This document shows positions 7,065 through 49,252 of a stretch of DNA of 64,000 nt, in pieces. The stretch comes from Stigmatella aurantiaca DW4/3-1 (lineage in GTDB: Bacteria > Myxococcota > Myxococcia > Myxococcales > Myxococcaceae). The stretch covers positions 3,181,501 through 3,245,500 of the forward strand of contig NC_014623.1 in NCBI RefSeq assembly GCF_000165485.1, written 5' to 3'. How positions within the stretch are numbered: the stretch's first letter is position 1; each line of letters begins with the position of its first letter. The notes below the pieces were generated by a model that saw only the letters and a list, made by a program, of their open reading frames with translations, was not told the origin of the DNA and did not search any database. The position numbers and the translations under genes were made by a program.

Positions 7065-8636
7065 CTAGCCGTATTGCGCGTAGAGGCGTCGCATGCCGAC
7101 CTTTGTGTGCTTGGCAGTGAGCCATCGGCGAATGGTCCACCACACGTGTGAGTCGAGGGCGGCGAAGACGCGCTTCGCCCCCCATGCGTGACGATAGTAG
7201 TTGCTCCACCCGCGCAGGGTTGGGTTGAGCAGGTCGAGGCGCTTCTTGAGCGTCGCGTTGCGCGTATCGCCGCGGAAGTGCTCTCGGACCAACGAGCGCA
7301 GACGCTTGCTGCGCTCCTTGGGGATGACGCACTTGCTGTTCCACCCGTACATCGGGCTTCGCTGCACTCGAACATGGTGCCCGAGGAAGCGCATCGGGCT
7401 CGTCACTGGTGTGATGGCCGTCTTCGCTTCCGAGAGTTCCAAGTTCAGCGTCTCCTTGAGGAGCGCTGCGAGAGCGGCCTTCTCTGCGAGCGCAGCCGTA
7501 CGGGCCCGTTCATGACTGCCGGGACCGGGCTTCGCACCCACGAGAATAATGAAGTCATCTGCGTACCGGATGGGGACGAGCACGAGTCGGCCGTCTCTTC
7601 GCGACCGCCTGTCGTTGTTGCGATTCTGCGCTGCTCGTAGCTGTACCATTCTCGTGTCGTGCAGGAGCGTCGGCGTCCGGCGAGGCCACACGTGGCGCTC
7701 GTACCGTTCGTCGATGACTGCCAGCGCGATGTTCGCGAGAAGAGGTGACAAGATTCCGCCTTGGGGCGTGCCGGTGCTGCTGCGGAGGAACTGCTCCTCC
7801 GCCATGACACCAGCCTTCAAGAACGCCACGATGAGCCGATTCACCTTCGTATCGCCGACGCGACGGCGAACCCGCTCCATCAGACCGTGATGGTCGATGT
7901 TGTCGAAGCAACCCTTGATGTCCCCTTCGATGGCCCACTGGTATGGGAGTCGAATCTCGGTCCCGGCTTCGGTGTTGGCGTGCTGAGGGAGGAGCAGCTT
8001 GCGCAGCTCCTCCAGTGCCGCATGCGCGCTTCGACCGGGCCGGAATCCGTACGAGGACGGGAAGAAATCCGCCTCGAATATCGGCTCCAGGATGTTCTTC
8101 ACGGCTGCTTGTACGACCCTGTCTCTCACGGTCGGGATGCCCAGGGGGCGAAACTTCCAGGGCTGTCCTGGCTTGGGGATGAGGACGCGCCGGACGGGGC
8201 AAGGTCGGTATGCGCCGGAGCGCAGTTCCTTCCGTACCTCGTCGATGAACGTGTCCACCCCTTTCGCTACGACCTTCCTGGCCGTGAGACCGTCTACGCC
8301 TGCTGTGCGTCGTCCTCGATTGCTGGCGACTCGCGCAAAGGCAGTCCGCAGGTTGCGGGGGTCGGTAATGAGGCCCCACAGCTTGCAGAAGACGTAGACG
8401 GGGTTTTCATAACTTCGCGCGTACAGCTTCCGCTGCTCGTTCAGGAGCCAGCTCCGGTCGGAACTGGATGCCACATACGTGGCTTTCCCCTGCGGCTTTG
8501 GCGCCGTACTCGTTGACTGCCTCCCTTCGCCATGTGCACGGCTCTCCCGCGCTCGGACTACTACGGAGGCTCCGTCCCTCGCGTGAGACGTCGCCGGACT
8601 GGACGGCTTGCCGGGCTTCGCGGGCTCGGCGCTCAC
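7065..8636 (-). CDS. ltrA: Group II intron reverse transcriptase/maturase
   Basis: Up to 523 residues from a GTG at 8636; a later start is possible, because the first 50 residues are low-complexity. RT blocks are clear: [19 protein letters not shown] (RT0/1), [51 protein letters not shown] and the catalytic [13 protein letters not shown]. Domain X (maturase) follows as [20 protein letters not shown]. The protein ends MRRLYAQYG with no HNH endonuclease domain visible, suggesting retrohoming without second-strand cleavage by this protein. It splices and mobilises its host intron. Confidence 0.93.
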
Positions 8637-29534: not shown

Positions 29535-30969
29535 TCACCCAATCACCCGCACCCCAATCTCGCCGATGCGCGGGCCGCCCGTTGTCCGCTCCTTCTGGCA
29601 CGCGAGCGCCACTGCCCAGAACTTGTCCGCGTGCCCGCGGTTGGTGCGCTCGGCGTCGAAGGACACCTTCCCCGAGGGCAGCACGCGCCGCTTGATGGAG
29701 TGAATCTGCCCGACAAGCTCACGCTGGCGCGGCAGCGTGACATCGCGGCGCTGGAGCAGAATCTTGAAGTCGGTGGCCCAGCGCTCCTTGGCCTCGTTGG
29801 TGAAGCTCTCCTCCACCACCTGGGGAAAGTCGCGGGCCAGGTTCTCGGCAAGGTTCATTCCGATACCGCTCTTATCAACGCTGAGGCGCGCCACGGGCAG
29901 GACGGACAGGAGTCGACGGAGGTGGGCTTCCTGCTCCGCGAAGGGGACACCTTCGAAGCTGCGCAGCATCCTGCAGGTGAAGCGGCCCTCCACCTCTTCG
30001 AATACGGCCAGCTCGGAGCGGTCTCGCGTGCGGCCCACGTCGAAACCCGCCACCAGGCGGCCCTGGGGCACGGGCACGTCGGAGGCGTCCTGGGCCATCG
30101 GCAGCTCGTCGATGGTGCACGGGAGGATGAGCTCGTAGGGGAGGAAGCTGTAGGACTCGTCGACGTAAAAGGCATTCGAACTCCTGCTGGAAGTCCTCCT
30201 GGGGCAAGGAGTCGAACTGCTCGGTGAGGACGGGGCGCCCGAAGCGAGCGACGCGCTCCTCGGTGGACATGCGGGGTGCCTCCACTGCGGCGCGACTCAC
30301 GTCGAGAGAGAAGAAGCGGCATAGCCACCAGGGCACCAGTTGGCGGGCGTGGTGCGGGTACTTGCGCAGTTCCTGGGTGTCTATCTCCCAGAAGATGCCG
30401 CGCCGGCCGAGAGGGGTGCTGCCCCCTGTGAGTTGTCCATGCGAGCGCAGGATGAGGGCGGTGCTGCCTGTATAGACTTCGCGGTCGTTGACCAGGTGCG
30501 CCAGCTCGTCGAGGTAGACATCGCCGCGCTTGCCGCGCGGAGGCTTGGCGGGAACGGAGATGATGCGCGAGAGGCGCCGGCCTCGGGAGTTCGACTCGAA
30601 GGCCAGCTCCGTCTTGGCATCCGTCACGAGCTTCTTCTGGTAGGCGAGCGGCAGCTCCTCGTACACCTGCCGGGCGATGAGCACCTTCTCGACAGCGTCC
30701 GAGAGGTTGTACGAAACGAAGACCGCCGTGTGGCCGTCGCGCAGGTGGCACCGCGCCAGGGCCTCGAGAGCGAAGAGGAAGGAGAAGCCCACTTGGCGGC
30801 TCTTCGCCACCCACCTGAACCGGGAGCGGTTGCCGAGAAAGGACTGCTGGTACGGCTCCAGCACCACCGGTTCGTTGTCGTACTGGCACAGCCCGGAAAT
30901 GAATCCGGACTCGGTGGCCAGCCACTGTGTGAGGTCATCCTCGGTGCGCTTGACGATGCCGAGCGTCAC
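29535..30969 (-). pseudogene. Terminase large subunit, disrupted by a frameshift
   Basis: Starts at a GTG at 30969 after GAGAGGACAGC. The ATPase half reads [40 protein letters not shown] (Walker A region) and [20 protein letters not shown] (Walker B). The nuclease half has [40 protein letters not shown] and [20 protein letters not shown]. The two halves are in different frames. The break is near 30174, where the first frame runs on as arginine-rich nonsense after EDFQQEFE. The region has one base too many for a whole number of codons. Intact, it would be about 478 residues and package DNA at the portal. Confidence 0.85.
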
Positions 30970-31049
30970 GCTGTCCTCTCTGCATGTTCCGTTGCTTTCT
31001 CTCGGCACCAGAGCGCGTATGGCTGCGTCCTCTTCACGACGGAGCCGCC

Positions 31050-31664
31050 ATGTCTGCCTATGCCGCTGTTGCCCGCCCACCTCGCACGCTCACGGAGAAG
31101 GAGGTGGCGCTCCTGCTGCGCGTCACGGGGGCGCACAAGGAGGGCTTCCGGGACCACTGCCTCTACAGCCTCGCGCTGGCCTCGGGCCTGCGTGAGCACG
31201 AACTGGTCGCCCTCAACATCGGCGACATCTTCAACGAGCGCGGGCGCGCGCGCCGGCACGTGATGCTGACTGTCTTCAAGGGCAGCCGCCGACACCCGCG
31301 TCCCCAGGAAATCGTTCTCGCGGACGCGGTGCGCGCGAAGCTGGAGAAGCTGCTGCGCCTGAAGCGTGCGCAGGGACACGACGTGGGTCCCCTGGCGCCG
31401 CTCTTCCTGAGTCGCAAGAGCCTGCGCCTGTCCACGCGGCAGGTGCGCCACGGCTTCGCGGTGTGGCAGGAGCGCGCGGGCCTGGAGCGGCACCTGAACT
31501 TCCACTGCACCCGTCACACCGCATGCACCGGGGTGTACCGGCGGACGAAGGACATCCGCCTCACCCAGCGCTTCGCGCGCCAGCGCAGCGTCGACTCCAC
31601 CGTCATCTACACGCACCCCTCGGACGACGAGCTGGTGCGCGTGACGCAAGAGTTGCCCTGCTGA
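31050..31664 (+). CDS. Tyrosine recombinase (XerC/D-like catalytic domain only)
   Basis: 204 residues from an ATG at 31050 with GGAG upstream, opposite to terminase. Catalytic residues are visible: Arg48 in [12 protein letters not shown], His152 and Arg155 in [13 protein letters not shown], and Tyr187 in [13 protein letters not shown]. The usual second His is replaced by Gln in FARQRSVD. There is only a short N-terminal extension, so the core-binding domain is minimal. Such small recombinases can resolve multimers or invert short segments. The main integrase is probably the large serine recombinase at 47699. Confidence 0.82.
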
Positions 31665-31787: not shown

Positions 31788-31817
31788 GTAAGTGAACGCC
31801 TCGCGCCGTTCACTTAC
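31788..31817. repeat. Inverted repeat GTAAGTGAACG / CGTTCACTTAC
   Basis: Two perfect eleven-base arms separated by eight bases. It is 120 bases after the recombinase stop. The same core AAGTGAACG recurs at 32437 and 32647, and inverted at 31843 and 32684. No U-run follows, so a protein-binding site is more likely than a terminator. Confidence 0.65.
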
Positions 31818-32278
31818 CGGGCGCAAATGAGCAGGGGAGGGGTGTTCACTTTTTCGGAGCTGACCCTCTCGAAAAGGGCCCCAGGTACACGCCCCGGCGG
31901 CGAGGCCCGCACGAAAAAACGCACCACCCCCCACCCTGGCGTCAGGGGTAGGCGGGGTAGGCGTGCTGGCGTCATTGGTAGGCATGGTTGCGCCCGGCCG
32001 GGGCTGGCGGTGAAGGGGAGTGGGGACGAACTGGGCCGCGCGTTGGGCGGCCGGTGGCGCGAACCTGCGGAAAGCGGCAATCGGCCTCGGCGCTTCGGCC
32101 CTTCATGAGGGCTCGTAAGCGCGCGAAACAGCGTGGGGGCCGTGACGCCGAATGGCCGCCTTTACCTATTTCCGGCCATTCGGCTCGGCCCTGGTAAGGG
32201 CACGCGCGCCCAGGTGCGCGCGGGGCGGCGGGCCGGTGCTTCGAGGGCAGCTCGGGGGCTCGTGGGGCTCACGAGGAA

Positions 32279-32313
32279 GACAAAGGCCTGCGGCCCGAAG
32301 CGCGCGGGGACAC
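32279..32313 (-). promoter_or_regulatory. Variant (35-bp) of the repeated promoter-like element, copy D
   Basis: Minus strand: GTGTCCCCGCGCGCTTCG, then GGCCGCAGGCCTTTGTC. Both conserved ends are present, but the interval is two bases longer than in the 33-bp copies. It lies about 1.3 kb upstream of the terminase start, with the plus-strand recombinase gene between them. It may be weaker or degenerate. Confidence 0.5.
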
Positions 32314-32644
32314 GCGCGCACAAACGGTGCGTCACGCGGCGACAGGCGCGGTGCGCGGGGCTGAACCGGGGCCACGCGCCAGGTGGGCCACGTGGCGGCC
32401 AGCGAGGCGCAGCGGAGCAGGGCGTCCTGGGCCGGGAAAGTGAACGGCGCGCTGGCGTCCGGCCCGCTGGACGGAGTGTGCTTCCGGGCGCGAGTTCAGG
32501 CCCAAACTCGTACCGCGGCGCTCATGGACCTGGTGGTTGTCCGCCCTAACCTCGCGAAACTACGAAGGCTGTGGGGCCAGACGTGTGCTTCTGCGCGCCA
32601 GGTGGAGCTCCCGGGGGAAAGTGACCAGGCCAGGCCTGGCGCGG

Positions 32645-32694
32645 CGAAAGTGAACGGCGAAACTGAACGCGAAAAAGGCTCCGTTCACTTTCCG
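32645..32694. repeat. Inverted AAAGTGAACGG sites beside the small terminase gene
   Basis: CGAAAGTGAACGG at 32645 and its complement CCGTTCACTTTCCG ending at 32694 flank an imperfect third site, GAAACTGAACGCG. It lies within 11-60 bases of the stop of the putative small terminase gene. A further copy is at 32436-32449. The arrangement suggests cooperative binding of a dimer. Confidence 0.6.
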
Positions 32695-32704
32695 AAGGGC
32701 TGTC

Positions 32705-33769
32705 TCAGGCGGGGTCGGCGGGGGGCGCGACGTCCGTGGGTTGAGCCACGAGGGCGTCGTCCTTGGGGCCTCCCGGGGAGGCCGTGTCGAGGTCCTCGTC
32801 GTCGCTGCTCACCACCTCTGCGTCCACCTCGCCGCGCACGGCGGGCGTCGTCTCGCGCGCAGCTCGCAGGGCCTGGGCGTGCCGAGCCTGGAGGCCCTCC
32901 AGCGAGAAGCTGGCGTGCAGCTCCTGGCGGGAGTCGGCGCCGCCCATGACGAACTCCTTCAAGCGCACCATGGTGTTGAAGTCGGTGGGGTTGTCGACGC
33001 GCACCCGGCCCTCGGCCAGCGCCTCCTCGAAGCCGAGGAGGTAGCCGTCAATCATCTTCAGGGCGTCGTCCTTGGAGACGGCGATGGCGGTGGCGCGCAG
33101 CTCAATCAGCTTCTGGTCCGCCTTGGTGGCGATGCGGACTTTCGCCTCCTCGCGGCGGCGCAGGCAGTTGTGCTCCTTGGAGTAGGTGGCGACGAGGGAG
33201 GTGGCGACGCCGAAGCGCTCGGCCAACTCGCGGTACGAGGCGTAGTCCGTCATGGTGGAGCCGTCGGGGAGCGTCGTCACGTCGCCGAAAACGAGGGCGC
33301 GGTCCAGCTCCTGGCGCGGGAGCGCGGGCTCCTCGGACTTGCGAGGGCGGCCCGTCTTGCGCTGCGCGGGCGGCGGAGGGGGTAGCTCTTCGACAGGCGC
33401 GGGCGGCGCGAGCTGCGCGGGCAGCGGAGGGGGTAGCACTTCGACAGGCGCAGGCGGCGCGAGCTGCGCGGGCGGCGGAGGGGGTAGCTCTTCGGAAGGC
33501 GGCAGCGTCGCGCGTTGCGGGCCTGCGAGGAGGCGCTTGCGGCGGCCGAGACAGTCGTGGTGCTCGGCGTACCGGGCAATGGCGCTGTGCGCGACGCCGA
33601 AGCGCTGGGCCAGCTCGCGGAAGGAGGGGAAGCGCCTCTTCACACGGCCTCGCGTGGTAGGCACCTCCTCGCCCTCGACGAGGAGTCGGTCCACTGTGTC
33701 GGGAGGAAACCGGGGGCCTTCGGCCTTGGTGGGGCGCCCCAGCCTCTTGACGGGCTTCTTCTTCGCCAT
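32705..33769 (-). CDS. Putative terminase small subunit with duplicated HTH unit
   Basis: 354 residues from an ATG at 33769. Two homologous units are seen. Unit 1 is about residues 10-79 ([20 protein letters not shown], then [20 protein letters not shown], then [11 protein letters not shown]). Unit 2 is about 139-207 ([20 protein letters not shown], then [20 protein letters not shown], then [10 protein letters not shown]). Each has an AT-hook-like GRP[TR]K and a helix-turn-helix. Between them is a proline-rich linker with repeated APPAPVE. The C-terminal third ([20 protein letters not shown]) suits a terminase oligomerisation region. It would recognise the packaging site. Confidence 0.6.
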
Positions 33770-38170: not shown

Positions 38171-38203
38171 AGCAAAGGCCTCCGGCACGATTTCGGGGAC
38201 ATG
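38171..38203 (-). promoter_or_regulatory. 33-bp repeated promoter-like element, copy E
   Basis: Minus strand: CATGTCCCCGAAATCGTG, then CCGGAGGCCTTTGCT. Same 33-base length as copies A-C with one change in the last box. It lies 65 bases upstream of the class-2 element, so the leftward early operon may have two start sites used at different times. Confidence 0.6.
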
Positions 38204-38215
38204 CCGTCGCTGGGT

Positions 38216-38519
38216 GGCAGAAGGGTGGCAGCCGGTGGCAGGCGCCTTTTGAAAGACTGCCACGAAATTCCCCAGTGAAAACAACGGAGTGGCAGTGGTG
38301 GCAATGGTGGCAGTGTTTTTTGGGGTAATGCCACCTAGGGGAAGTGCGACTTCGAACCCCTATTGAATAGTGCCATTCAAATATGCACGCGCCCGCTACG
38401 TAGGGGTACTTGAAAAAAGACTGCCACCACTGCCACCAAGAGATAAGTTATTGAAATAAAAGAAGAAAAAGGTGGCAGATGGTACTGCCACCCACCTGCC
38501 ACCTCTGCCACCTTCTAAA
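38216..38519. repeat. GGTGGCAG iteron cluster with AT-rich DNA; candidate origin
   Basis: At least 13 copies of GGTGGCA or its complement TGCCACC within 300 bases, in both orientations and with irregular spacing. They include GAGTGGCAGTGGTGGCAATG and ACTGCCACCACTGCCACC. An unusually AT-rich segment (about 38430-38470) lies among them. Such iterons plus an unwinding segment are typical of replication origins, and they lie between two diverging phage operons. They could also be operator sites. TGGCA is half of a sigma-54 site, but no matching TTGC box at the right distance was seen. Confidence 0.6.
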
Positions 38520-47505: not shown

Positions 47506-47702
47506 GCGGCCCCGACTTCTTCCAGACGCACATGGGGCAGCGATTCTATGAGTCGACGATGCCGCAGCTCGTTCGCGAGCTGAAGCGCCTCAACGACAAC
47601 GTGGAGCGGCTGGTGGCCGTGGCGGAGCAGCTCGCCACGTCGAAGGAGGCGCCGCGCGTCGAGCCGGCGCCGTCGAAGACAGAGGAGGTGGAGAAGCCAT
47701 GA
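47502..47702 (+). CDS. Small coiled protein between DUF2924 and recombinase
   Basis: 66 residues from an ATG at 47502; overlaps DUF2924 at its start and the recombinase at its end (ATGA both). Sequence TMPQLVRELKRLNDNVERLV AVAEQL is a coiled-coil helix; the end is Pro/Glu-rich. It may bridge the recombinase's own coiled coil. Unknown family. Confidence 0.6.
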   Translation: MSGPDFFQTHMGQRFYESTMPQLVRELKRLNDNVERLVAVAEQLATSKEAPRVEPAPSKTEEVEKP

Positions 47703-49252
47703 GGAAGAGCAAGCCAGCGCCCTCGGACGCGAAGCGCTGCGCCGTCTACACGCGCAAGTCCACGGCGGCGGGCCTGGAGATGAAATTCAACTCGCTGGAC
47801 GCTCAGCGCGACTCCTGTGTCTCATACGTGCAGCGCCAGCCCGGATGGGTGTTGTTGGATGAGAGCTATGACGATGGCGGCTTCACCGGGGCCAACATGG
47901 AGCGGCCCGCCTTCCAGCGGCTGTTGCAGGACGTGGATGCGAAGCGGGTCGACGTTGTCGTGGTGTACAAGGTCGACCGGCTCTCTCGCTCCCTTCTCGA
48001 CTTCGCGAAAGTCATGGAGCGCTTCAACGCGGCGGGCGCCTCCTTCGTCTCGGTGACGCAGAACTTCTCCACCGCCGACGCGATGGGCCGACTCACGCTC
48101 AACATGCTGATGTCCTTCGCCGAGTTCGAGCGAGAGATGATTTCCGAGCGCACGCGGGACAAGGTGGCCGCCGCGCGCCGCAAGGGGAAGTGGACGGGCG
48201 GGAGGGCGCCGCTGGGCTACGAAGTGAAGGACAAGCGCCTCGTGGTGAATGAGTACGAGGCGGTGGTGGTGCGGGAGGCCTTCGAGTTGTACCTCCAGCA
48301 CCACCAGGCCTCGGTGGTGTCGCGCCTACTCAACGAGACGGGGAGGAAGACGAAGCGGTACGAGGCCCAGAGCGGTGCCACGCGCGCGGCCCGGAAATGG
48401 ACGACGCAGGATGTGCTGCGCCTCTTGAGGAGTCCCCTGTACGCGGGCTTCGTGCCGTATGGCGACGAGATGCACCCGGGCGAGCACCCGGCGATTGTAG
48501 ACAGGGCCACCTTCCATCAGGTGCAGGACATCCTGGAGGGCCGCGGCCCGGGCATCCAGTACCACGGGCGCAACCCGGACTACGTGCTGCGAGGACTCCT
48601 GCGCTGCGGCATGTGCGGCGAGGCCATGACGCCCGGCTCCACTCGCAAGGGGACGCGCGAGTACCGCTACTACCGCTGCGTCACCCGGGACAAGCAGGGG
48701 AAGGAGGGGTGCAGGGCCTCGCCTCTACCGGCAGCCGCCCTGGAGGACTTCGTCGTCGCCCGGCTGCGGGAAGTCTCGGTGGGTGGGGGCTTCGCAACGC
48801 AGGTGCATGCCCGCCTCACGTCGCGGCTGGAGGAGAAGCATAAGGCCCTGCGCGCGGAGCGCGTGCAGCTCCCGAAGGACTTGGCCAGGCGTGCCGGGGA
48901 GTCCGTGAAGTGGGTGGACTCCCTCTCGAAGCTGGAGGGCCCCTCCCGGCGCCTCCTGGAGGAGAAGCTGACGGCCGCCGGAGAAGAGTCCGCCGGTATG
49001 AAGAGGCGGTTGGCGGAGGTGGAGCGCGCCCTGGACGCCATGGAGGGGGAGAAGCTGGAGGCGGCCTGGGTTGCCCAGGCATTGGCGGACTTCGACGCGG
49101 TGTGGGATGCCCTCACGGCCGCCAACCGGGGGCGCCTGCTGCAGGCCCTCGTCGGCCGAGTCGTGGTGGATGAGGAGACGGACAGAGTGGACGTGCACCT
49201 TGCCCATGCAGGTGAATCCGCGACGCCCGTGCGCGAGGAGGTGGCGGCGTGA
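47699..49252 (+). CDS. Large serine recombinase (phage integrase)
   Basis: 517 residues. The catalytic domain begins KRCAVYTRKSTAAGLEMKFN (nucleophile Ser21), with SLDAQRDSCVSYV, VVVYKVDRLSRSLLDFAKVM and NMLMSFAEFEREMISERTRD. A recombinase domain follows (TGGRAPLGYEVKDKRLVVNE; WTTQDVLRLLRSPLYAGFVP), then a zinc ribbon with LLRCGMCGEAMTPGS and YYRCVTRDKQGKEGC, and a coiled-coil C-terminus. This is the canonical large serine integrase. It is the best candidate for integrating the prophage. The attachment site was not identified. Confidence 0.93.
   Translation: MRKSKPAPSDAKRCAVYTRKSTAAGLEMKFNSLDAQRDSCVSYVQRQPGWVLLDESYDDGGFTGANMERPAFQRLLQDVDAKRVDVVVVYKVDRLSRSLLDFAKVMERFNAAGASFVSVTQNFSTADAMGRLTLNMLMSFAEFEREMISERTRDKVAAARRKGKWTGGRAPLGYEVKDKRLVVNEYEAVVVREAFELYLQHHQASVVSRLLNETGRKTKRYEAQSGATRAARKWTTQDVLRLLRSPLYAGFVPYGDEMHPGEHPAIVDRATFHQVQDILEGRGPGIQYHGRNPDYVLRGLLRCGMCGEAMTPGSTRKGTREYRYYRCVTRDKQGKEGCRASPLPAAALEDFVVARLREVSVGGGFATQVHARLTSRLEEKHKALRAERVQLPKDLARRAGESVKWVDSLSKLEGPSRRLLEEKLTAAGEESAGMKRRLAEVERALDAMEGEKLEAAWVAQALADFDAVWDALTAANRGRLLQALVGRVVVDEETDRVDVHLAHAGESATPVREEVAA

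Follow-up and report, generated by a model that had tools for sequence, protein, structure and literature searches.

A conserved repeat array beside a candidate small-terminase gene in a Stigmatella aurantiaca prophage: a possible packaging site sharing its gap with a recombination-type site

Described packaging sites, recombinases and tandem prophages

Known pac and cos sites usually lie in or before terS, not after it. In phage P1, pac consists of two clusters of short repeats, and the same genome separately carries the Cre recombinase with its palindromic loxP site, while the R sites of lambda cosB are short repeats bound by an HTH small terminase. FimB and FimE are about 200 residues long, consist of the catalytic domain only and use short inverted half-sites. 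The locus analysed here belongs to a prophage of Stigmatella aurantiaca DW4/3-1, whose genome is a single contig of 10.26 Mb; the window is the 64,000-nucleotide stretch 3181501-3245500 of it. Like P1, it combines two repeat clusters with a tyrosine recombinase and a palindromic site on the same genome, but the recombinase is catalytic-only, its gene stands between terL and the terS candidate, and the site it probably uses falls inside the same gap as the repeats. The likeness to lambda cos is one of short repeats and an HTH small-terminase candidate rather than of known cohesive ends, and the position and spacing of the repeats differ. The recombinase matches FimB and FimE in approximate size, in catalytic-only build and in short inverted half-sites, but its gene accompanies a terminase locus. 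To our knowledge, tyrosine recombinase genes that recur together with a pair of terminase genes would be a new arrangement, if the locus works as proposed below.

Work on SPP1 and SF6 describes several sets of repeats near terS, with the regions bound by TerS flanking the cut (PMC4737164, PMC6316719), and the repeats near the terS candidate here resemble that layout. SPP1 pac covers promoters and the start of terS, whereas the present array comes after the terS candidate and occupies a 1-kb gap together with a recombination-type site. The DNA-binding domain of the SF6 and SPP1 small terminases is reported to discriminate little in favour of the pac repeats (PMC4737164); repeated sequences inside a pac region are therefore not necessarily what the enzyme recognises.

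Mx-alpha of Myxococcus is described as imperfect copies of about 80-100 kb arranged in tandem in the chromosome (PMC6070905, PMC5562445), a description to which the gap-to-gap spacings of 86 and 102 kb in the S. aurantiaca array can be likened. Its particles are described there as tail-less (PMC6070905), whereas the prophage studied here encodes tail sheath, tape measure and baseplate proteins. The same papers describe Mx-alpha heads as too small for the whole unit (PMC6070905), and report that toxin genes of Mx-alpha-type prophages shape which myxobacteria tolerate each other (PMC5562445). If the array is Mx-alpha-like, it would belong to prophages with tolerance-shaping toxin genes and undersized heads, and a candidate packaging start with an adjacent recombination-type site makes the packaging question testable. 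Within the open-access papers searched we found none linking Mx-alpha with a terminase; a description elsewhere is possible.

Repeats in the intergenic gap

The gap between the recombinase and two-HTH genes is 1,040 bp long and has 71% GC, against 67% for the window; the two genes are convergent, so that both 3' ends face it (Table 1). The original prediction had called this stretch non-coding, and the alignment agrees: four gap ORFs were free of internal stops in 10/17, 13/17, 9/17 and 4/17 distinct copies, and their lengths were out of frame in 10-12 of 17, so a coding role was rejected. It had also placed the stretch between the large and small terminase genes, which holds except that it missed the integrase-family gene intervening before TerL. 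An Rfam scan gave 0 matches at the gathering threshold, and no tRNA was found in the 64-kb window.

Table 1. Features of the terminase region and related elements (window coordinates).
Feature	Position	Strand	Remarks
Large terminase (TerL), two frames (N part, C part)	29535..30969	-	PF03237, PF17289, phrog_2, phrog_5713
Catalytic-only tyrosine recombinase, 204 aa	31050..31664	+	Conserved in position between gap and TerL gene
Sites A (31790-31797 +) and B (31808-31815 -)	31788..31817		Inverted pair GTAAGTGAACG-N8-CGTTCACTTAC; R3 and R2, respectively, of the cross-lineage layout
Site C (R1), AAGTGAAC	31844..31851	-	Adjoins conserved block; R1 position in 13 lineages
Conserved block CTGGGGCCCTTTTCGAGAG	31866..31884	-	Longest conserved run in gap
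G-tract AGGGTGGGGGGTGGT, then GCGTTTTTTCG	31923..31937	-	
Third half-site CCGATTGCCGCTTTCC	32069..32084	-	Not especially conserved in close group
Core-like inverted repeat GCCGAATGGCCG-N14-CGGCCATTCGGC	32147..32184		12-bp arms
Site D, AAGTGAAC	32438..32445	+	
Site E, variant AAAGTGAC	32618..32625	+	Conservation not above background
Cluster F	32646..32692		AAGTGAAC 32648 (+), AACTGAAC 32661 (+), AAGTGAAC 32683-32690 (-)
Two-HTH protein, small-terminase candidate	32705..33769	-	Proposed site binder
Large serine integrase	47699-49252	+	phrog_95, 3e-123

Exact AAGTGAACGG occurs at 31806-31815 (-), 32438-32447 (+), 32648-32657 (+) and 32681-32690 (-), while 31790-31799 (+) reads AAGTGAACGC, with one mismatch, and 31842-31851 (-) reads AAGTGAACAC, with two. 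All six sites share the 8-mer AAGTGAAC, and variants are present at 32618 (AAAGTGACC) and 32661 (AACTGAAC). A motif search of the stretch placed the originally predicted sites correctly to within about 3 bp, and the two inverted repeats proposed with them are both perfect, over 11 bp (31788-31798/31807-31817) and 12 bp (32646-32657/32681-32692).

The repeats in the gap are real. Six of the seven copies of AAGTGAAC in the window fall inside 31788-32694 (907 bp), with one elsewhere, compared with a mean of 0.015 and a maximum of 1 in 5000 Markov simulations of that interval. Across the genome, exact AAGTGAACGG was found 19 times, against five for a reversed control pattern, and eight of these copies fall within the present prophage array. 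Two results would suit repeats that are a product of chance or a functionless relic: the whole-window excess of AAGTGAACGG with at most one mismatch is mild (7 vs 2.71 expected; at least 7 in 2/100 shuffles), and, taken singly as windows, the six sites belong to the best-conserved 6-12% of the gap without standing out above it. Given their clustering, their recurrence and their similarity within lineages (see below), such an origin is scarcely credible.

Short repeats in direct and inverted orientation, in non-coding DNA with recombination and exonuclease genes nearby, could also be the iterons of a replication origin. The spacing is irregular and the gap GC-rich, where regular iterons and AT-rich DNA would be expected, and a denser, AT-richer cluster exists elsewhere; we therefore hold the iteron reading to be very improbable, and the gap is unlikely to be an origin. 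That other cluster, at 38200-38510, comprises nine copies of GGTGGCAG on both strands at 53% GC, compared with 71% in the gap, and it is a possible replication origin and a better candidate than the gap.

Genes flanking the gap

On the minus strand, genes for PD-DEXK and RNase T-type exonucleases, an HNH gene, a RusA-like gene and a gene for an unknown 276-aa product precede the two-HTH gene; past the gap and the opposite-strand recombinase gene come TerL and portal, and farther left capsid, tail sheath and tape measure. The two-HTH gene accordingly sits near terL in late-gene order, with the RusA-like gene on one side and TerL, then portal and capsid, on the other, and the order HTH-gap-recombinase-TerL is kept in many relatives. 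Its protein was found in 30/96 genomes of the family and 31/195 of the phylum, and the 22 named loci belong to Myxococcus, Corallococcus, Citreicoccus and metagenome bins.

Among 17 members of this protein family, eight were matched by phrog_6299, 'terminase small subunit' (best 5e-6), and seven by the small-terminase family phrog_1206 (best 2.2e-5), while families named HNH endonuclease, DNA binding protein and transcriptional regulator matched 5-8 members, about as often. The predicted structure shows a pair of HTH units followed by a helical C part (mean pLDDT 68, pTM 0.29). Against solved structures no match was found below E 0.05 by sequence or 0.001 by fold, and among the 50 viral fold matches listed, one was named small terminase (rank 5, E 0.13). 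Phage records gave no protein match at the limits used, and no terminase-small-subunit match was found among the 29 other window ORFs scanned, a set that left out many small ORFs. The protein is therefore a plausible small terminase whose assignment is weak by sequence: the original prediction of a small terminase with two DNA-binding units is favoured by the two terminase profiles and by gene position, and tempered by the similar frequency of regulator-like families.

Those regulator-like matches, together with inverted pairs typical of operators, raise the question of whether the HTH protein or a host regulator binds the repeats as operators to govern transcriptional read-through to the terminase and head genes. 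We consider this quite unlikely, since the gap is convergent and no identified gene starts inside it. A scan for sigma-70-like promoters, with other promoter types outside its scope, found none in the gap; GC-rich shuffles give none either.

The recombinase ORF (30984-31664) matched PF00589 at 2.6e-22. The residues R, K, HxxR and Y, which we take to be catalytic, were present in all nine aligned rows; the position of the histidine before the tyrosine is occupied by Q in L088 and the window copy and by H in the seven distant rows. Phage records yielded seven weak matches, below 35% identity. The gene is whole in 12 of the 13 lineages compared below, L150 keeping only its first 32 codons, and no recombinase was found at the L099 and L195 loci. 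The recombinase of this locus appears conserved across myxobacterial and deltaproteobacterial phages. In L102 and L194 the gene is split by an insert bearing a second recombinase, about 60% identical.

The TerL frames overlap in this prophage group, with a shift site at 30165-30171. The switch reads CTT TTA C in 17/17 distinct contexts (the search demanded A after the run; a looser listing held no close-group copy without it), and TTA is one of 9596 codons in 21 window ORFs. TerL has a single frame at the switch point in L099-L101, L103, L104, L114, L182-L185, L188, L190 and L191. Sequence features of this kind make TerL a strong candidate for programmed +1 ribosomal frameshifting. Among the tail genes, a reverse transcriptase at 7065-8636 (-) matched phrog_1423 (2e-114) and could be part of a diversity-generating system or of a group II intron.

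Relatives of the locus, the core-like site and DNA junctions

A search of 59 genomes with the gap gave some match in 12 and long matches in four, the own genome included, where a second copy lies at 3111381-3112415 (91%) and a partial one at 3025593-3026096 (82%). Among the 28 loci listed, 15 in the close group hold the whole gap and 13 of these have all six sites (two with a seventh), while L093 and L096 each have one fewer. The R1-R2 and R2-R3 spacings are constant in the close group, with differences of a few bp in the remaining spacings; in the sequence available at two further close-group loci, no site was seen in L095 and one odd site in L098. In 20 aligned copies, reduced to 17 distinct ones by dropping three near-duplicates, the AAGTGAAC sites A, B and C are intact in 17/17 and D, F1 (32648) and F3 (32683) in 16/17, whereas the AACTGAAC variant is not conserved above background. 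Site conservation alone is supportive, not overwhelming. Inserts of about 1-4 kb occur between the HTH-gene 3' end and cluster F in L093, L094, L096, L097, L112, L113 and G028:C1:2279745-2283303, some of them accompanied by duplicated HTH-gene 3' ends.

Phage records gave no DNA match to the gap at the limits used. Scanning viral contigs, the block pattern matched one known contig, and the G-tract pattern matched one known contig and the unrelated L272, possibly by chance; L272 has no match to the HTH, recombinase or TerL queries.

Many loci whose HTH proteins are 30-60% identical share the order HTH gene, gap, opposite-strand recombinase, TerL. We aligned 23 rows from 13 lineages chosen for having the G-tract, with R1 picked by eye, leaving out L187-L192 and L197 (too diverged, too long or without a G-tract) and L099, L185, L193, L194 and L196 (duplicates or truncated). 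Beside the recombinase, the G-tract with GGTCnGATTTTCG or a variant is followed after about 25-40 bp by CCTGGGGCCnTTTTCGA or a variant and then R1, and G-tract, block and R1 recur in diverged form in all 13 of these G-tract-selected lineages. By eye, R2 is clear as a direct copy in 10/13 (not L149, L150 or L151), and inverted R3 in 5/13 (close group, L104, L106, L149, L186) and degraded in the rest; the HTH-gene-proximal sites D to F were found in the close group only, in a search for exact AAGTGAAC that does not cover diverged forms. The original prediction had suggested looking for the same repeats at the same place in related prophages; most whole close-group gaps have all six sites, and more distant relatives have diverged counterparts of the recombinase-side part. 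TerL was found near the array in 10 of the 13 lineages and not in L106, L150 or L186, L150 having lost most of the recombinase and TerL; outside this set it was not found near L189 or L192, and near L197 only as a start-like scrap.

The repeat letters drift by lineage (TGAAC, TGAGC, TGACC, TGGAC). The best further copy scored on average 9.77/12 against the R1 of its own lineage and 8.79/12 against that of other lineages (permutation p 0.0009, as also in a run with hand-picked R2), as expected for one sequence-specific binder. By eye, P at the start of the recognition helix goes with TGAGC and H or T mostly with TGAAC, N lineages being mixed. In Mantel tests on 12 rows, the correlation of motif similarity was alike for HTH identity (rho 0.20, p 0.09) and for recombinase identity (0.20, p 0.13), which favours neither protein.

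Taken together, we put at roughly 0.47 the probability that the AAGTGAAC array is a pac-like docking site for the two-HTH small-terminase-like protein and marks the start of packaging. It is supported by the array itself, its conservation and spacing, its place between the terminase genes, the diverged counterparts and the TerS profile matches, and the short repeats lie close to the terS candidate and terL, as at pac sites. The odds are kept lower by R2 and R3 not being universal and by the three lineages in which TerL was not found near the array, and the location of the array after the terS candidate also counts against it. The original suggestion of a pac region is thus partly supported: it retains its conserved repeats and plausible terS neighbour, whereas the recombinase and core share the interval and regulator-like matches are about as frequent. 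Under this proposal the two-HTH protein would be TerS and would dock on the AAGTGAAC repeats, after which TerL would cut nearby, perhaps at the CTGGGGCCCTTTTCGAGAG block; the gap would be a shared hub that also carries a site for the small tyrosine recombinase, 250-510 bp from the six repeats.

That site is presumably the core-like inverted repeat. In relatives its right half is AAAGYGGCCATT or close to it, and the outer arms are symmetrical in most, with the third half-site roughly 60-100 bp off. The window arms are 14 bp apart, where the attachment site of a tyrosine integrase would have a spacer of 6-8 bp; a left half extending to GCTTT, which leaves a 6-bp spacer, appears in only some relatives (L151, L149, L184), and the G082 sites also show half-sites reaching a 6-bp spacer. 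The core is placed between the G-tract and the HTH gene, and in L184 core and third half-site are in the other order. Pairing within 14 hand-cut cores was 81%, a modest signal (19/500 shuffles as high), and core similarity correlated more with HTH identity (rho 0.47, p 0.002) than with recombinase identity (0.30, p 0.09; 11 rows).

One junction in the own genome is exactly at the core. A scan of 400 kb around the array found three places at threshold, namely the two complete prophage cores and 3025595; phage homology begins at 3025593 and homology to a regulator-like gene (91% to G083, 81% to G082) ends at 3025606, with 14 bp shared. In G082 and G062, the ends of that gene adjoin other regions of related phages, again at similar sites, and in G083 its DNA borders on chromosomal sequence that occurs in relatives without this DNA (six rows compared, L253 and L256 being uninformative). 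These junctions mark the core type as a joining point for mobile DNA, and the small tyrosine recombinase probably acts on it. The regulator-like gene was rejected as a bacterial target, as in relatives its DNA is an insertion ending at that point.

The repeats might then be accessory, arm-like sites for this 204-aa recombinase, itself without an arm-binding domain, with the HTH protein as a DNA-bending or directionality partner at the core. Recombinase gene and core accompany the array in 12/13 lineages, and the exact junction, the three core-scoring places and the correlation of core similarity with HTH identity point the same way; against it, the repeats are farther from the core than arm sites should be, G082 has the gap in its interior, and the serine integrase is the likely prophage integrase. 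On balance we regard accessory sites as doubtful, yet as the main rival to pac-like docking. A combined packaging-and-recombination locus, with the logic of P1 compressed into a single interval, in which TerS would dock, packaging would start or end beside the core and the recombinase would join cores, seems unlikely; if true, packaged genomes could be circularised or resolved, and tandem prophage units and neighbouring mobile-element ends reshuffled.

The gap is not simply a phage attachment site. It is intact and internal in the single-copy G082 element, prophage ends are not at the gap (the 3025593 junction excepted) and a serine integrase is encoded elsewhere, and we rejected an attachment site as the main answer. 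Homology of the G082 element to the array ends just past the serine integrase gene (100 kb compared), which makes integration by that enzyme more likely; it is probably the prophage integrase, with its own attachment site near it. Strong inverted repeats of about 13-6-13 (G082:C1:2272991 and 2279764; G105:C1:1962891 and 1968742) flank a segment of 6-7 kb close to the left end in related prophages, and some of these repeats coincide with gene 3' ends. Along the S. aurantiaca array there are also five direct repeats, each about 400-700 bp long and 81-85% alike, at 2958.5k, 3002.3k, 3054.0k, 3148.9k and 3252.2k, which were first read as att sites, a reading since dropped; the last lies just before a gene whose product, by eye, reads like an RNA methyltransferase.
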